The notes under the pieces: generated by a model
Told to the model about the DNA's origin: nothing
The model's database searches: none
Seen by the model: the letters and a program-made list of their open reading frames with translations, nothing else
Translations under genes and position numbers: made by a program
Part shown: positions 20,142-32,098 of the stretch, piece by piece
Numbering within the stretch: the first letter of the stretch is position 1
Layout: every line of letters starts with the position of its first letter
Source of the DNA: Planctomycetaceae bacterium
Lineage (GTDB): Bacteria; Planctomycetota; Phycisphaerae; UBA1845; UTPLA1
Length of the DNA stretch: 64,000 nucleotides
Direction of reading: 5' to 3'
NCBI GenBank assembly: GCA_006969385.1
Contig: CP030884.1
Location: forward strand, 5,264,249-5,328,248

Positions 20142-20353
20142 TCGATTTGGCGATCGGGTGATTTTTTGATTTGGTGATTGAGGATTTGCGGGTTGAGAAC
20201 GCCCGCGCGACATAGCCGTTTACGCAAAACGTGCGTCAGCACGTCAGAGCCGCGGGCTATCGCCCGCAGGGATTTACGGCGACCGGAAACGCCATTTTCT
20301 TAGAATCCTTTCACCATTAAACGCCAGCTAGCCATCCCATAGAATATGTGCTG
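20142..20353. repeat. Intergenic stretch with two small palindromes
   Basis: Downstream of pntB lie two adjacent stem-loops: ACGTGC-GTCA-GCACGT (about 20229-20244) and GCGGGC-TAT-CGCCCGC (about 20252-20267). The second is preceded by GTCAGAGCCGCG, a string also present at 7979-7990 in the motA-motB gap. A weaker GATCG/CGATC stem with a T6 run near 20165 could end the pnt transcript. Confidence 0.5.
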
Positions 20354-21007
20354 ATGGCCACACAATCGTCTGTTAACCTGCGACGGCGAATTCGACTTGG
20401 GCGAACGTTCTACTGCGTCACGAATCTCACCGTCGCATGTTTCATCATCCTTGCCGCTACCGGGCTTATCGAAGTTCTGATATTCAACTATGAGTATTGG
20501 TATCGCAACAACCGCGGGAGAATTCGATTTGACATTGGATTTGCGGATCACGGAATCCTCTTCAATCTTGAAAGATACAAAGGAAGCAATACAAGCTTCG
20601 ATGAGTACCTTCGGAATCACGCAAATGACGATGGCTGGTTAGATTCGGGCTGGGAGACCATACCAAGGATGCGCGGATTTCTTAATGCCCGCTACTTTGA
20701 AACACCAACATTCGGCGAATATTGCTCCGGGAAGCACATAATCGTAACTAGAAATGCCTGCGCCAACTGCCCTCAACGTAATGCATCGATCCCTATGGTG
20801 TATGTCGCTTTGCCTCTCTGGTTCGTTCAATTGCCCGCCGGATTACTATTGGCGATTCTGACCTACTTTCGCTGGCGCCGTTTCAACCCCGCCGCCTGCC
20901 GCAAATGCAGCTTCAATCTTCGCGATAATGTCAGCGGCATCTGCCCCGAATGTGGAACACCGCTTTCCGAACTGAATCAAATGTTGAACAAAGCCCAAAG
21001 TCCATAA
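20354..21007 (+). CDS. Small membrane protein with C-terminal zinc ribbon, dispersed paralog
   Basis: A 217-residue product using the ATG at 20354 (a GTG two codons earlier is possible; no clear ribosome site). One membrane helix near residues 25-45, an outside domain of about 100 residues, a second helix (YVALPLWFVQLPAGLLLAILTYF), and a cytoplasmic CX2C-X11-CX2C zinc ribbon (CRKCSFNL, ICPECGTP). This is the same plan as the ten-gene array at 26683-31282, with identical cysteine spacing but diverged sequence (SFNLRDNVSG instead of GYDLTGNESG). Function unknown. It stands alone between pntB and the phosphatase gene. Confidence 0.7.
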   Translation: MATQSSVNLRRRIRLGRTFYCVTNLTVACFIILAATGLIEVLIFNYEYWYRNNRGRIRFDIGFADHGILFNLERYKGSNTSFDEYLRNHANDDGWLDSGWETIPRMRGFLNARYFETPTFGEYCSGKHIIVTRNACANCPQRNASIPMVYVALPLWFVQLPAGLLLAILTYFRWRRFNPAACRKCSFNLRDNVSGICPECGTPLSELNQMLNKAQSP

Positions 21008-26602: not shown

Positions 26603-26645
26603 TTCGCAGCGAACGTGGCTGCAACACGGCAGCTTCAAGAAATGA

Positions 26646-26684
26646 GAAACGACCGTCTCCAGTGAGGCGGTCGTTTCTTTTTTT
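26646..26684 (+). terminator. Strong intrinsic terminator
   Basis: A 14-base stem GAAACGACCGTCTC with GAGGCGGTCGTTTC, tetraloop CAGT, then CTTTTTTT on the plus strand. It sits between the plus-strand RNA candidate and the converging minus-strand array, whose last stop codon overlaps the T run. On the minus strand the U-tract is weaker (TTTCTCATTTC), so it may act both ways. Confidence 0.85.
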
Positions 26685-27124
26685 ACGCAGTGGGATTTTC
26701 GACGGTGACCGGTGCGTTGCATTCGGGACACGCGCCACTTTCATTGCCCGTGAGGTCATACCCGCAGGTTTGGCAATAACCTTTTGGGCTGTCTGCGCGA
26801 TTTTCGCCAGAGGATGAATAACAGCGACCATGATATGAGGTTGGTAAACCAATGGGGAAGGCAGAACTCAACTGCCCAGTTACCTGAGCGGCTCTTCTTA
26901 AATTCAAAGCTCGGCCATCCCAAATCTCTCTCTTGTTTTGGTGGGCCTATCGAATACGACATATCGAGTGAATAGCCAGGTAATTGCCATACCCGAATTC
27001 CTTTTCGATCAACGAGAATTTCCGCAACCTCGATGTCCGCGAATAGTGATGCCATCTCTGATATCGCAGCTAGAAATATGAATAACAATGCGAACCCAAG
27101 TGTAAGGTACCTCATCCAGGTCAT
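26683..27124 (-). pseudogene. Zinc-ribbon membrane protein array, member 10 (frameshifted)
   Basis: Last gene of the array. The ATG at 27124 overlaps the previous stop as ATGA. Reading frame 1 gives an N-terminal helix, an outside domain (EILVDRKGIRVWQLPGY) and a second helix (WFTNLISWSLLFILWRKSRRQPK). It then runs into nonsense and a stop at 26756. The expected zinc ribbon (GYCQTCGYDLTG, ACPECNAP) continues in another frame to the TAA at 26683. The break is at the T4 run at 26782-26785, where one extra base relative to the paralogs separates PK from GYC. Either a real frameshift, a sequencing error at a homopolymer, or a programmed shift. The other nine members are intact. Confidence 0.75.
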
Positions 27125-27576
27125 GCAGCCACCTCAACCGTCATATAGCATTCGGGACACACTCCGCTTTCATTACCAGTGAGGTCGTATCCACAGCCTT
27201 GGCAATGGCCGCGAGGATATCTTTGACGCAACAGAAATACGACTAGGTACAGCATCCAAGAAAACGAATTCGTGACCCAATGAGGGATAAACACCCTTCC
27301 ATTTCTTGGCCGAGATTGATATCTGGCCAAGGCAGAGTCAACGTCAATGTTCATCAATCGATACCAAGCAAGCTCATCACGTTCGAGCCGTCGCAAATAC
27401 AAGCCGCGTGACGAAGACGGACCGTAGTCACGCCACGAGACCAATATGCCCGAACGAAACGAATCGCAATGAATGTGTCGCCGCTCCCCAAACGAGATAG
27501 GAAACTGATACGAGACCAGCCATAACAACAGGGTCGTACAACAAACAAAGAGCAAGAAAATCCGTAGAATTTTCAA
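27121..27576 (-). CDS. Zinc-ribbon membrane protein array, member 9
   Basis: A 151-residue member. The start is TTG at 27576, overlapping the upstream stop as TTGA, which points to translational coupling. The N-terminal helix ILRIFLLFVCCTTLLLWLVSY leads to an outside domain with SFRSGILVSWRDYG. The second helix (WVTNSFSWMLYLVVFLL) and a basic stretch precede the ribbon: CQGCGYDLTGNESG then CPECY. The ribbon, expected on the cytoplasmic side, would bind one zinc. The outside domain diverges strongly from its neighbours while the second helix and ribbon are conserved. Function unknown. Confidence 0.75.
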   Translation of the reverse strand: MKILRIFLLFVCCTTLLLWLVSYQFPISFGERRHIHCDSFRSGILVSWRDYGPSSSRGLYLRRLERDELAWYRLMNIDVDSALARYQSRPRNGRVFIPHWVTNSFSWMLYLVVFLLRQRYPRGHCQGCGYDLTGNESGVCPECYMTVEVAA

Positions 27577-27995
27577 TCTGTCACCTCAGTCGCGGCATTA
27601 CACTCCGGACACGCCCCGCTTTCGTTGCCCGTTAAGTCGTAACCACAACCTTGGCAATGACCTTTCGGTTGGCGCGACGAAAAAAGTCGGAGCCCAAGGT
27701 AAGCCAAGCCCGTAACCGTCATATTGAGCCAATGCGGCGCGATTAGGTGAAACATACCCGCTACTTGCAAATACGGCGCAGTCCAAAAACGACCGAGCAC
27801 GGGAAGATCTTTGTTATACACTTCGCCGTGCCCTTCGGGCGGATAATACCAAATGACGACGCATCCCCTGTAGTTAGCAATCGCAAGTCGCTTCGTCGGA
27901 AAAAGCATGTGGGTTCGATGAACGTTACCAATCACGCAGCATGTAACTGCCAAAAGAAAAAAGGCCAAAAACAGCGGTCGCAGCACTTTTTTCAT
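27573..27995 (-). CDS. Zinc-ribbon membrane protein array, member 8
   Basis: A 140-residue member starting at ATG 27995, which overlaps the previous gene's stop as ATGA. A longer frame upstream (to 28145) reads the previous gene's ribbon in a wrong frame and is rejected. Basic start MKKVLRPLF, helix LFLAFFLLAVTCCVIG, outside domain with IANYRGCVVIWYYPPEG, second helix WLNMTVTGLAYLGLRLF, then RQPKGHCQGCGYDLTG and ACPECNA. It shares the short beta-strand pattern 'G-x-hydrophobic-x-hydrophobic-x-W' with other members. Function unknown. Confidence 0.75.
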   Translation of the reverse strand: MKKVLRPLFLAFFLLAVTCCVIGNVHRTHMLFPTKRLAIANYRGCVVIWYYPPEGHGEVYNKDLPVLGRFWTAPYLQVAGMFHLIAPHWLNMTVTGLAYLGLRLFSSRQPKGHCQGCGYDLTGNESGACPECNAATEVTD

Positions 27996-28417
27996 AGTAT
28001 TACCTCCGCATTGCACTCCGGACATACCCCGCTTTCGTTGCCCGTTAAGTCGTAACCGCACTGTTGGCACGAACCTTTCGGATGCGTCAGTGTTTTTCGG
28101 CGCAATAAATAGTACGACAGCCAAACGCCAAGGTTGATAAACCAATGCGGGATTGAGATGGCAAGCGTCCAGTTGCCCGAGATCGGATCGTTGGAATAGC
28201 CATACGAAGGTAGATGAAGAAACGTGCCGCGCGGCGCATCGAAGTCGATCTTTTTGGGTGATTTGTTACCGCTCAAACGCCAAACGGTGTATCCGTTTCG
28301 AGACATGAAACCCGAAACCGCCTGATACCTCACCGTGACCGCCAACATCGTCGAGAGCAATGCCAACAAGACGAAAATCAATCCGAATACGAAGGTAATG
28401 GACCTTAGGGTGTTCAA
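27992..28417 (-). CDS. Zinc-ribbon membrane protein array, member 7
   Basis: A 141-residue member starting with TTG at 28417 (TTGA overlap with the upstream gene). The N-terminal helix ITFVFGLIFVLLALLSTMLAV is followed by an outside domain containing SRNGYTVWRLSG and a glycine- and proline-rich section. The second helix (FINLGVWLSYYLL) and the ribbon (CQQCGYDLTGNESG, CPECNA) end the protein. HPKG before the first cysteine pair is shared with member 6. Function unknown; co-translation with the rest of the array is implied by the overlap. Confidence 0.75.
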   Translation of the reverse strand: MNTLRSITFVFGLIFVLLALLSTMLAVTVRYQAVSGFMSRNGYTVWRLSGNKSPKKIDFDAPRGTFLHLPSYGYSNDPISGNWTLAISIPHWFINLGVWLSYYLLRRKTLTHPKGSCQQCGYDLTGNESGVCPECNAEVIL

Positions 28418-28899
28418 GGGTTCGCCTCGATCATTGTACTACATTCGGGGCACGCGCCGCTTTCGTTGCCGGTGAGGTCGTAACCACAACTTTGGCAATG
28501 GCCTTTGGGATGCTTGCGCGATTTTCGCCAGAGGATGAAGAACAGCGACCATGCGATGAGGTTGGTGAGCCAGTGGGGAATAACAAGCGTATGGTATGCA
28601 ACCTTGTCGCCATCCGACATGACTGAATAAGACGGAAGCAGGAATATCGCCCCATCGGAGGGCCACAGTTTCCAATATTCAACACTGGACTTGTCCACGC
28701 GATTCTTGCGAGTGGCCCGCTCTTGCCGATCCAGTAACCGCTGCGGAATATCAACGAAACTGACAACGATGCAACCCCGCGTAATCAAAAATGAAGGACC
28801 AACAGGGGGCCCCAGGCGGACCGTCGACAGGAATGCAGCCGCCCAGACAATTGACACCAATATGGCAAGCACCGCCATCAATCGTGAAAGCAACTTCAT
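28414..28899 (-). CDS. Zinc-ribbon membrane protein array, member 6
   Basis: A 161-residue member with an ATG start at 28899, overlapping the upstream stop as ATGA. The helix LMAVLAILVSIVWAAAFL leads to an outside domain with ITRGCIVVSFVDIPQ and a charged segment. The second helix and its junction (PHWLTNLIAWSLFFILWRKS) are nearly identical, also in DNA, to members 4 and 10. Ribbon: HCQSCGYDLTGNESG then CPECS. No catalytic residues are recognisable in the outside domain. Confidence 0.75.
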   Translation of the reverse strand: MKLLSRLMAVLAILVSIVWAAAFLSTVRLGPPVGPSFLITRGCIVVSFVDIPQRLLDRQERATRKNRVDKSSVEYWKLWPSDGAIFLLPSYSVMSDGDKVAYHTLVIPHWLTNLIAWSLFFILWRKSRKHPKGHCQSCGYDLTGNESGACPECSTMIEANP

Positions 28900-29348
28900 T
28901 CGGCCGCCTCTACCGCCGCGTTACACTCCGGGCACGCCCCACTTTCATTGCCCGTCAGATCATAACCGCACGACAAACACCGGCCCCTGCTCGCCCATCT
29001 TTTGCGCCGTCGCACTTTGCGACCCATCAACCACCATGGCGGTAACAACACGGCGATGATCAACCAAAAGGGAATAACAGCCATAACATCATTGACAAAC
29101 AAAGCGGGGAACCACACACGATCGCTATGTCTGCAAACAAAAAATCTCGGCCCGTTGTCATATTGCATGAACGCTTCTGCCAGACCACCATCAGCCGAGC
29201 TTCTGTTGTAAGATAACTCTATGCGGCCTTGGCCCACGCAGACGATGACGTAGGGATGTCCATAAACGATAGAATACGACGGCAAAAGCGCGCAGAACAC
29301 GAATGACACGATGAGAATACCGAACAATAGATGGCGTAATCCCGTCAT
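28896..29348 (-). CDS. Zinc-ribbon membrane protein array, member 5
   Basis: A 150-residue product using the ATG at 29348, which shares a base with the upstream stop (TGATG); a GTG one codon earlier is possible. The helix HLLFGILIVSFVFCALL is followed by an outside domain with VGQGRIELSYNRS. The second helix (VMAVIPFWLIIAVLLPPWWL) is followed by an arginine- and lysine-rich strip RKVRRRKRW and a ribbon RCLSCGYDLTGNESG, CPECNA. The RC-LSC variant of the ribbon is shared with the relic at the head of the array. Function unknown. Confidence 0.75.
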   Translation of the reverse strand: MTGLRHLLFGILIVSFVFCALLPSYSIVYGHPYVIVCVGQGRIELSYNRSSADGGLAEAFMQYDNGPRFFVCRHSDRVWFPALFVNDVMAVIPFWLIIAVLLPPWWLMGRKVRRRKRWASRGRCLSCGYDLTGNESGACPECNAAVEAAE

Positions 29349-29797
29349 CACCGATCATTCTGGCCTGCCGCCAGTCCACACTCCGGACACGCGCCGCTTT
29401 CATTGCCGGTGAGGTCGTAACCGCACCTTTGGCAGTGCCCCGTTGGTTGCTTTAGCGATTTTCGCCAGAGGATGAGGAACAGCGACCATGCGATGAGGTT
29501 GGTGAGCCAGTGCGGCAGAACAAGATAGGTAAGCCGGCCATCCGGACTGCCGTTTATATTTAGTGCTTGCACACGATAGCCAGATGCGAACGCATCGACA
29601 ATGCTGCCTGCAGGTGGGAGCAGTGAAATAGACCATGAACCAAATCCATTCGGCTGCCAATAGATCTGTATCGAACCTCGTTCAACTTGAATCTGGGCGT
29701 GCCGCGACGCAATCAGCGCCATTGAGAACTGCGCAAGCACGGTAAGTCCTAAGCAAGGAACGGCAACGAGCAGCGAGCATCGCGTTAGCCACTTCAT
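29348..29797 (-). CDS. Zinc-ribbon membrane protein array, member 4
   Basis: A 149-residue product from ATG 29797 (ATGA overlap); the frame extends further upstream through the previous gene's ribbon and that part is rejected. The helix SLLVAVPCLGLTVLAQFSMAL is followed by an outside domain with VERGSIQIYWQPNG and a proline-rich loop. Then LPHWLTNLIAWSLFLILWRKS, very close to members 6 and 10, and the ribbon HCQRCGYDLTG, ACPECG. The C-terminal tail GLAAGQNDR is unique to this member. Confidence 0.75.
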   Translation of the reverse strand: MKWLTRCSLLVAVPCLGLTVLAQFSMALIASRHAQIQVERGSIQIYWQPNGFGSWSISLLPPAGSIVDAFASGYRVQALNINGSPDGRLTYLVLPHWLTNLIAWSLFLILWRKSLKQPTGHCQRCGYDLTGNESGACPECGLAAGQNDR

Positions 29798-30183
29798 GTT
29801 GACTCCTCTACATATGCCCCACACTCCGGACAAATACCGGTTTCGTTACCGGTCAGATCATAACCGCAAGGGATACATAGATAGACGCCTTCACTTCGCA
29901 AGTTGCGTCGCAATCGTCGCCGAATTGACTGTCGAGAGACGGCGTATGCAGCAAACATTGACGGTATCGACATAGCCAAATAGGCCAAACTGTTGGCCCA
30001 ATGAGGAACATGCGAATGCAAAAGTACTTCGTATAGCGCGACCAAAACAGCGAACATGCAGGCGTAAAACACGATGAGCCAACGCGAATGCTTCCAGCCG
30101 ACGCTCTGTAGCGCCTTCTGCGGTTCCTCGAACCGCTCCAACTCGGGAAGCCACCGGAGGTATGGCCACATCCCGCGCCTCAT
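29794..30183 (-). CDS. Zinc-ribbon membrane protein array, member 3
   Basis: A 129-residue product from ATG 30183 (ATGA overlap). It differs from its neighbours: about 35 cytoplasmic residues come first (MRRGMWPYLRWLPELERFEE), then two close helices (WLIVFYACMFAVLVALYEVLL and ANSLAYLAMSIPSMFAAYAV) with only a short outside loop. A basic strip RRRLRRNLRS precedes the ribbon LCIPCGYDLTG, ICPECG. The outside domain of the others is therefore missing here, which may mean a regulatory or assembly role. Function unknown. Confidence 0.72.
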   Translation of the reverse strand: MRRGMWPYLRWLPELERFEEPQKALQSVGWKHSRWLIVFYACMFAVLVALYEVLLHSHVPHWANSLAYLAMSIPSMFAAYAVSRQSIRRRLRRNLRSEGVYLCIPCGYDLTGNETGICPECGAYVEEST

Positions 30184-30686
30184 ACGCCGACCCGCACGAC
30201 CGTGCCGCATTCCGGGCACACGCCACTCTCATTGCCTTGCAGGTCGTAGCCGCATCGATCACACGGGTGCATCACTTGGCGACGCAAACGACGGCGACGG
30301 TAAGCGCGGATGAAGAAGATGGCGGGGTAAATGGCGGTGAAGATAGCGATGAGCCAAGCGTCAATCATTATCAAGTTATAGATGATACCAGACGGATGAT
30401 AAACGCCACTAAAACCTTCGCGCTTTGCCGAAATCAAAATCCCACAAGCACGATGGGTGTAATCTCCTGAATACAATTCGGATTTATAATCACGTGCTCG
30501 AACTGTCACTAACGCATTGGACTGAATCGAAACAATAATTTCGTTGGTTCCCCCGTACCCCCTTAGTCGGCCTTCATCAAGAGGGTAGATACGAATCTTA
30601 CGCGCGGGGATAACCGCCACTAGCGTGGCTGTGACCGTAACCAACAACAGCAGCGCAACCACTCCTCGATGCCACCACTTCCACAT
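30180..30686 (-). CDS. Zinc-ribbon membrane protein array, member 2
   Basis: A 168-residue member from ATG 30686, overlapping the upstream stop as TGATG. It has the N-terminal helix VVALLLLVTVTATLVAVI, an outside domain rich in beta pattern (NEIIVSIQSNALVTVRARD), a second helix (MIDAWLIAIFTAIYPAIFFI), a basic strip (RRRRLRRQ) and a ribbon PCDRCGYDLQGNESG, CPECG. The ribbon has LQG in place of LTG, like the relic. Function unknown. Confidence 0.75.
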   Translation of the reverse strand: MWKWWHRGVVALLLLVTVTATLVAVIPARKIRIYPLDEGRLRGYGGTNEIIVSIQSNALVTVRARDYKSELYSGDYTHRACGILISAKREGFSGVYHPSGIIYNLIMIDAWLIAIFTAIYPAIFFIRAYRRRRLRRQVMHPCDRCGYDLQGNESGVCPECGTVVRVGV

Positions 30687-31282
30687 CAGCCCGAGACCTC
30701 AGTCTTGCTGGTTGGTTCAATTGGGGTCCCGCATTCGGGGCAGGTTCCAGACTCATTTCCGGTGAGATTATACAGGCAGTGCGAACAATGACCGTCACGC
30801 ATTCGTCGCCTGCTTATTGCCCCGCCAATTATGGGAGTGAGACAAATGAATGAGATAGTGCTCGGTAGCCAAAATGGGATAGTCGCCGACCAGATAAAAT
30901 GGCTCGAATTCACGCCACGTTTCAGCATTTGTAGAGTTTCGAGCGCGCCGTCGGCATGTTGATTTCCAGATATTGCATAGATTCTAGGCCAATGTATTCC
31001 TAAACGATGGCGATACCTAAATACTGAAGAAGTTTGATTGCGATGAAGGCGGTCTCCAAAGCGGCCGGATATTAATTGGAAGCCCGCATATTTAAAGTCT
31101 TTGACTTCAATTGCTCCATCACGGACCTTCACGACCCAACGGCTACTGTTGCGATGGTCGAGTGGATACCAAGAATAGAAGACGGTAAATACCCAGCCGC
31201 CGAGTGATACGACAAACGCGGCACTCCAGACAGCAATCCATGCATTTCGCGCTCGTCGCTTAACTTTCCGACTTATGCCCAT
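30686..31282 (-). CDS. Zinc-ribbon membrane protein array, member 1
   Basis: First intact member, 198 residues from ATG 31282. The frame extends to 31360, but that part reads through a relic ribbon in the wrong frame. The N-terminus is basic (MGISRKVKRRARN), followed by the helix AWIAVWSAAFVVSLGGWVFTV and the largest outside domain of the set (KVRDGAIEVKDFKYAG, then a His/Arg-rich section). The second helix (TIPFWLPSTISFICLTPIIGGAI) leads to the ribbon HCSHCLYNLTGNESG, CPECG. LYNL instead of GYDL marks it as a diverged member. The array promoter is probably upstream of the relic or of the GPP34 gene. Confidence 0.75.
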   Translation of the reverse strand: MGISRKVKRRARNAWIAVWSAAFVVSLGGWVFTVFYSWYPLDHRNSSRWVVKVRDGAIEVKDFKYAGFQLISGRFGDRLHRNQTSSVFRYRHRLGIHWPRIYAISGNQHADGALETLQMLKRGVNSSHFIWSATIPFWLPSTISFICLTPIIGGAISRRRMRDGHCSHCLYNLTGNESGTCPECGTPIEPTSKTEVSG

Positions 31283-31385
31283 ACTCAGCCCCGCGATCGC
31301 TGCACTTGCCCGATTCACTGCCTTGCAGATTATACCCGCACGATAAACAGCGGCCCGCATTTGCCGATCGTTGCCGCCGCTGATT
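31260..31385 (-). pseudogene. Relic of an eleventh zinc-ribbon array member
   Basis: An open stretch of 41 codons without its own start encodes only the ribbon end: RCLSCGYNLQGSESGKC, then SDRG where all others have CPECG, so the second cysteine pair is broken, and then a stop at 31260. The start RRQRSANAGRCLSC resembles member 5 (RRKRWASRGRCLSC). It lies right after the stop of the GPP34 gene and overlaps the start of member 1. Confidence 0.65.
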
Positions 31386-31390
31386 TCACG

Positions 31391-32098
31391 CTAATTCGTC
31401 GCCGCCACGATCGTTGTCGCCATCACGCTCGGCATGATCGCCGCCATCATCATGGCAGCCTGGGCCGCTTGCACCGCTTCTTTGGTGGCTTTGCCCATTA
31501 ATTCGCCTTGCGTGATCTGTTCGATGCGCTTTTTCTGTTTCTTCAATTCAGCCTTTTTGAAATAGATGCGCAACAAGTCCGCCGCGTGCGCCAGTGAAAT
31601 CAGAATCGCCGTGCGCGGGTCGATCTTATCCGTATCGGTGAAGATCGCGCGTTCGAGGCGCTCTTTCATCTTGCGTTCCGGCTTGGGGTCGAGTTCGGGA
31701 TAGACCGTGCGATTGAAGATCAGCAGCACCTTCTGCTCGTCGGCTTTTAGGATGCCTTTTTTGCAGAGCTCCAACGCGACGCGATGGTGCAGGCGATGCA
31801 ATCCGGCAAACCGTTGCACCCAAGTGGTGGCCGCTGCGCGCCGTTTAGCGGTGCGAATCTTGCGTAGCGCTTCGTCGATGATGGCATCGCCCAGCGGCGT
31901 ACCGTCAATGAGGTTGACCATGCCGCGCGAACCTTCTTCGATCTCCACGCGTCCGGTCATTACCAATTCCGCCAATATCCCCCCGCCCATCGCCTGCGCG
32001 TACATCGCACCAAACTCGGGCGTGCCGAGCTTGTCGCTGAGCGCAAGCAGCATGATTTCTTCGTGTAAAAACAATTGGTTTGTTCGACGGCCGGCCAT
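31391..32098 (-). CDS. GPP34-family protein
   Basis: A 235-residue protein whose N-terminus (QLFLHEEIMLLALSDKLGT) matches the GPP34 family start, followed by the expected helical repeats: GGGILAELVMTGRVEIEE, GTPLGDAIIDEALRKIR and TAILISLAHAADLLRIYF. In eukaryotes the family member GOLPH3 binds phosphatidylinositol 4-phosphate on Golgi membranes; bacterial members are common in actinobacteria and scattered elsewhere, with mostly unknown function. The C-terminal tail is methionine- and alanine-rich (AAMMMAAIMPSVMATTIV). It lies five bases before the relic of the zinc-ribbon array in the same direction, so co-transcription is plausible. No signal peptide. Confidence 0.85.
   Translation of the reverse strand: MAGRRTNQLFLHEEIMLLALSDKLGTPEFGAMYAQAMGGGILAELVMTGRVEIEEGSRGMVNLIDGTPLGDAIIDEALRKIRTAKRRAAATTWVQRFAGLHRLHHRVALELCKKGILKADEQKVLLIFNRTVYPELDPKPERKMKERLERAIFTDTDKIDPRTAILISLAHAADLLRIYFKKAELKKQKKRIEQITQGELMGKATKEAVQAAQAAMMMAAIMPSVMATTIVAATN

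Follow-up and report, generated by a model that had tools for sequence, protein, structure and literature searches.

Overlapping tandem genes for ribbon-bearing, putative membrane proteins in a Phycisphaerae genome

Type VII secretion loci carry tandem arrays of membrane immunity paralogs. Overlapping gene pairs can be coupled through termination-reinitiation (PMC6728339, PMC10666635), and among such pairs in Escherichia coli the subunits of heteromeric complexes are enriched, 30% versus 7% (PMC10666635). A zinc ribbon is borne by the staphylococcal protein TcaA (PMC10611510). Here we describe ten ribbon genes, g1 to g10, lying head to tail on the minus strand (31282-26683) of a 64,000-nucleotide stretch of a Planctomycetaceae bacterium genome (contig CP030884.1, positions 5,264,249 to 5,328,248; hereafter the window). 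The array appears to be one operon of ancient paralogs, polycistronic and coupled in translation. We tentatively favour the reading that its products are co-translated subunits of an envelope assembly in which the ribbon serves as a shared docking or assembly module.

Junctions and coupling signals

Direct reading of the DNA bears out both the ten tandem ribbon genes and the overlaps described in an earlier, sequence-only reading of this locus: neighbouring genes overlap by one or four bases at all nine junctions (ATGA, TTGA or TGATG; Table 1), and every gene encodes a CX2C-X11-CX2C ribbon. That the array is translated as a coupled series, as had been proposed, is supported by these overlaps and by two further signals, embedded Shine-Dalgarno-like GAGG motifs and TGA stop codons, which mark non-terminal genes and make coupling look to be under selection. 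Among the family members of the host genome, 16 of 42 non-terminal ones have GAGG or GGAG shortly before their stop codon, as against 1 of the 52 terminal or single ones that served as the control (p = 4e-6). TGA stops are also commoner in non-terminal members (28/42 versus 22/52, p = 0.02). The same comparison in other genera gave 59/71 versus 56/93 for TGA (p = 0.002) and a weaker bias for GAGG/GGAG (18/71 versus 14/93, p = 0.11). At seven of the nine window junctions GAGG lies exactly 12 bases before TGA, and the VE/EA-like tail of the protein thus doubles as a likely ribosome-binding signal.

Overlaps are also frequent in the related loci, where they were counted as a start codon available at -4 or -1, the start itself not being proven. 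In other genera such a start is available at 48 of 90 junctions, more often where a gene of type II (defined below) takes part (23/29) than between two type I genes (15/36, p = 0.003). We propose that a ribosome ending one gene would re-initiate on the next, whose start codon overlaps the stop, aided by GAGG in the tail of the upstream gene, and neighbouring products would thereby be made side by side in linked amounts. The enrichment of complex subunits among overlapping gene pairs lends such an arrangement support as an assembly, not proof.

Lineages, gene order and turnover

The common protein plan attributed to the ten genes stands in part. The ribbon occurs in all of them and two hydrophobic segments around a domain of about 60-110 residues occur in most, but g3 has no outside domain, its two helices being adjacent, and g10 is frameshifted. 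The ribbon reads C-X2-C-G-Y-D-L-x-G-N-E-[ST]-G-x-C-P-E-C in nine genes, g1 having CSHCLYNL instead. The second helix, said to be conserved together with the ribbon, has a common form in g4, g6-g9 and the g10 fragment alone and differs in g1, g2, g3 and g5, so only the ribbon is common to all ten.

Hidden Markov models built from other genera only distinguish type I (LKWxG N-terminus, PLWxP..., GHCQxCGYDL), type II (MIRKA or MWKWLH N-terminus, YPxxAFIRGPLRRxRRR linker) and type III (PELxRF, lacking the outside domain). By these models the first three genes of the window array are of types I, II and III and all later ones of type I; g1 and g5 score higher as type I than as type II by a narrow margin. 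The first type III profile held two sequences; a later five-row profile, with three rows from the host genome itself, gave the same outcome for g3. In a tree of members from the host and one same-genus genome, genes cluster by lineage across arrays and not array by array. The window array has the lineage order 1-2-3-4-5-4-4-4-4-(4), an array at 2481392-2486163, preceded by a separate short first open reading frame, has 5-5-x-y-2-3-4-5-4-4, and a third at 77053-79152 has 1-2-3-4. The window array thus shares a six-gene colinear run, 2-3-4-5-4-4, with 2483379-2486163 (longest-run shuffle, p = 3e-4) and a four-gene run, 1-2-3-4, with 77053-79152 (p = 0.008). Since colinear pairs are 33-46% identical, the gene order is old. 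By these comparisons the array is five lineages in fixed order, not ten copies of one gene, and the earlier suggestion of a set of distinct subunits is in agreement with the order kept in three arrays. Directly after the array at 77053-79152 (L001:4401-5057, minus strand) lies a gene for a membrane protein whose outside domain, on visual inspection, looks NTF2-like and whose C-terminal ribbon is of another kind (CPSC...FCGECG).

At the syntenic locus of a same-genus relative (locus L055, genome G001), g1 is 89% identical with a ratio of nonsynonymous to synonymous substitution (omega) of 0.19. It is followed by a g2-type gene whose outside domain differs from that of g2, a gene without a ribbon coupled by ATGA, and the same terminator-like hairpin as behind the window array. 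Genes g3 to g10 are missing; two ribbon genes there against ten in the window indicate that array content turns over fast. The gene that ends the relative's array (L055:5447-5851) encodes a soluble protein of 134 residues with no Pfam match.

The window array itself bears traces of loss and exchange. A decayed ribbon, GRCLSCGYNLQGSESGKCSDRG, lies directly upstream of g1 (profile match at genome positions 5295547-5295630, E = 3.4e-7); its DNA is 80-84% identical to the 3' ends of intact genes at two other loci (L054 and L004), which indicates that an eleventh gene formerly stood there. In g10, one frame (27124-26756) ends ...RRQPKRLLPNLRV at a stop, and the ribbon is found in the next frame, which stops at 26683; the frameshift site reads CCCAAAAGG, compared with CCCAAAGG in the sister gene g6, and could reflect decay or an assembly error. 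Among the array genes nonsynonymous divergence (dN) of the ribbon is 0.02-0.39 and synonymous divergence (dS) is mostly saturated, a degree of ribbon conservation beyond chance. Between g4 and g6 the second transmembrane helix (TM2) has a dS of 0.38 and the outside domains fail to align. Part of the helix-ribbon similarity of g4, g6 and g10 thus looks like recent local exchange between paralogs.

Such observations fit a birth-and-death tandem family that forms no complex. Its genes would be duplicated, deleted and exchanged through near-identical ribbon ends, the overlaps would be inherited with the unit, and the proteins would act alone or as homo-oligomers in some envelope task. The two ribbon genes of the sister genome, the relic, the frameshifted g10, the exchanged 3' module, the internal stops in members of other arrays and the many solitary members all agree with this. 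It accounts less well for old, deeply diverged lineages standing in fixed order in three arrays, for the near confinement of GAGG to non-terminal genes and for the excess of overlaps at junctions that involve type II. We regard it as a serious possibility, and favour the envelope assembly over it; both can be partly true if the assembly is flexible and its subunit number changes.

The sequence-only reading had taken the outside domains to diverge as those of receptors or displayed variants that feed one cytoplasmic partner. The shared ribbon, the dissimilar outside domains of paralogs and the altered g2-type gene beside a well-kept g1 would suit such a set, or one of decoys. The orthologs speak otherwise: for four pairs between two same-genus genomes, omega is 0.17-0.30 overall and 0.16-0.24 in the outside domain, and identity in the outside domain (85-93%) exceeds that of the helix-ribbon end (78-79%). 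The outside domains are therefore under purifying selection and not more variable than the ribbon end, which argues against a fast-diversifying receptor set; those of paralogs differ because the lineages are old. We consider this explanation improbable.

Predicted products and the family

All intact products except that of g3 are predicted to be small membrane hairpins. A short basic cytoplasmic N-terminus would lead into a first transmembrane helix (TM1) and then a small outside domain rich in beta structure and Trp; TM2 would follow, and after it a basic strip and a cytoplasmic C-terminal metal ribbon. The N-terminal tail carries a mean charge of +4.5 and the strip ahead of the ribbon +2.6, and from the positive-inside rule we infer an N-in/C-in topology; metal binding is likewise a prediction. 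In the type I model, made for g4 (Table 1), TM1 is followed by three strands and a loop of low confidence; a further strand then continues into TM2, behind which comes the ribbon. The type II model was poor (predicted local distance difference test, pLDDT, 64). Foldseek found no match to the type I model at E <= 0.001 and no relative among viral models. The best VIA match had Z 5.9 and a root mean square deviation of 8.5 over 67 residues, the outside loop being of low confidence. The absence of a fold relative does not make the fold new.

Pfam and NCBIfam scans of the family gave nothing above cut-off (DUF7129, 18.9 bits against 30; Zn_ribbon_15, 20.4 against 28.9), a sequence search of the PDB gave unrelated low scores only, and in the literature library searched no paper contains the ribbon peptide or describes the family. 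The resemblance of CX2CGY...CPxC to a short rubrerythrin/rubredoxin-like knuckle, together with weak matches below threshold to RUBY_RBDX and Zn_ribbon_LapB, might point to membrane rubredoxins whose metal site binds iron and passes electrons on. Those matches fall far under the cut-offs and no redox partner recurs nearby, and we hold this to be very unlikely. Tandem small membrane proteins whose gene content changes rapidly between close species could also be immunity or defence proteins against the toxins of competitors or phage. A PADLOC scan gave no match worth the name (best E 0.024, in 1 of 35 members), no defence or toxin neighbour recurs, the outside domains evolve slowly, and scores of copies stand as ordinary chromosomal genes; a defensive role thus seems highly improbable.

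The host genome (5.48 Mb, one contig) has 94 matches to the helix-plus-ribbon profile at E <= 1e-5, both solitary and in arrays. A loose ribbon motif occurs in 61 of 61 sampled relatives, with 1 to 55 copies each; a stricter pattern occurs in 4 of 149 sampled genomes of the phylum, all of them Phycisphaerae metagenome-assembled genomes (MAGs), and the full type I model (E <= 1e-10) in 43 of 150 genomes of that class. The best 80 loci of a GTDB scan belong to Phycisphaerae or Planctomycetota MAGs, bar three: two labelled "bacterium" from the same MAG, and one on a contig labelled Acidobacteriaceae (L128, PMMJ01000320), perhaps misbinned or transferred. The family appears to be restricted to the Phycisphaerae. 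In many genomes of the class the genes are found both scattered and in coupled arrays; genes that were scattered and never coupled, which would have told against the sequence-only reading, are thus not what is seen.

Several further loci show the range of such proteins. At L152-L153, G034:C18 and G034:C92, seven to eight type I genes stand in arrays whose junctions lack overlap, and some of the genes contain internal stops. A type I protein at L166:7680-8123 has a ribbon beginning CKCGYDLTGN, with the first Cys pair altered. At 5358066-5366023 of the host genome (L020) a seven-gene cluster encodes a different class of ribbon protein in tandem, with an N-terminal ribbon (CPKCDYDL...CPEC). Within the window, a further solitary member (20348-21007, plus strand; ribbon CRKCSFNLRDNVSGICPEC) is encoded on the opposite strand, some 6 kb away from the array.

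The features of the array are collected in Table 1. The promoter scan found no sigma-70-like promoter for it, and the window contains no Rfam or tRNA match. Directly upstream, on the same strand, lies a gene of the GPP34 (Golgi phosphoprotein 3) family (31391-32098; Pfam E = 3.7e-47). It was rejected as an operon partner because in G001 a divergent methyltransferase-like gene separates GPP34 and g1.

Table 1. Features of the ribbon gene array, in window positions (aa, amino acids)
Feature	Position	Strand	Description
Ribbon relic (GRCLSCGYNLQGSESGKCSDRG...)	31270..31376	-	remnant of a lost upstream gene, now g1 leader; related to g5 lineage
g1	30686..31282	-	198 aa, type I, lineage 1; largest outside domain
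g2	30180..30686	-	168 aa, type II, lineage 2; long basic linker ahead of ribbon; TGATG with g1
g3	29794..30183	-	129 aa, type III, lineage 3; PELxRF N-terminus; ATGA with g2
g4	29348..29797	-	149 aa, type I, lineage 4; ATGA with g3; model mean pLDDT 79.7
g5	28896..29348	-	150 aa, lineage 5; TGATG with g4; alternative GTG start at 29351 possible
g6	28414..28899	-	161 aa, lineage 4; ATGA with g5
g7	27992..28417	-	141 aa, lineage 4; TTG start, TTGA with g6
g8	27573..27995	-	140 aa, lineage 4; ATGA with g7
g9	27121..27576	-	151 aa, lineage 4; TTG start, TTGA with g8
g10	26683..27124	-	lineage-4-like, frameshifted just ahead of ribbon; ATGA with g9
Terminator-like hairpin	26644..26679	-	16 pairs, z -3.1, directly 3' of g10; T run on plus-strand side

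A putative assembly and its comparison with known systems

In the reading we tentatively prefer, each lineage most likely supplies a different subunit to a hetero-oligomeric assembly of the envelope. Its outside domain would assign each subunit its role, and the ribbon would be a common docking or assembly module, used too by scores of other proteins of the cell. That the array forms one complex or sensor remains an inference.

Several observations weigh against this reading. The syntenic locus of G001 holds only g1, a different g2 and one gene without a ribbon, which excludes an obligate ten-subunit complex; the same subunit set is not kept between species, as it would be in a typical heteromeric complex. 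The old gene order may have been kept by function, or the colinearity may merely go back to a duplication of the block as a whole early on. Type I and type III members are often solitary elsewhere, type III mostly so, and thus no member strictly requires the array. Moreover, only about 30% of the overlapping pairs of E. coli encode complex subunits, clustering of neighbouring genes found no recurrent partner, and the Foldseek and VIA searches gave no relative.

A bolder version of the envelope assembly, which we think rather unlikely, is a Phycisphaerae-specific machine with at least five old subunit lineages in one coupled chain and fixed order, and with a single cytoplasmic ribbon-binding factor that would serve these and the about 90 ribbon proteins of the cell. 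The family, restricted to one class, has neither a name nor a domain model, and its chains run to ten or eleven genes, the majority of them coupled. Should neighbours assemble, the array would represent a new envelope complex in planctomycetes, bacteria with an unusual envelope, and a natural case of subunit number varying between sister species. The GAGG embedded in the protein tail is a candidate coupling signal open to direct test.

Among known systems, the Pfam families PF23455 (DUF7129), PF12773 (DZR), PF17032 (Zn_ribbon_15) and PF18073 (Zn_ribbon_LapB) have the same CX2C-X(10-12)-CX2C knuckle; the likeness is confined to the ribbon, and scores lie under every curated cut-off shown. Type VII immunity arrays are likewise tandem sets of small membrane paralogs with variable copy number, whereas here there is no toxin partner, the outside domains evolve slowly and no sequence similarity is shown. 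TcaA, a single-copy protein of 454 residues with an N-terminal ribbon, resembles the array proteins in architecture: a membrane helix connects a cytoplasmic zinc ribbon with an outside domain. The array proteins differ in their C-terminal ribbon, two-helix hairpin, small outside domain and many paralogs. Finally, the array differs from coupled operons for heteromeric complexes in that all its putative subunits are paralogs of one family, gene number changes between close species and the complex is hypothetical; what it has in common with those operons are overlaps of one or four bases throughout, an intragenic Shine-Dalgarno-like motif, and distinct putative subunits in fixed order.

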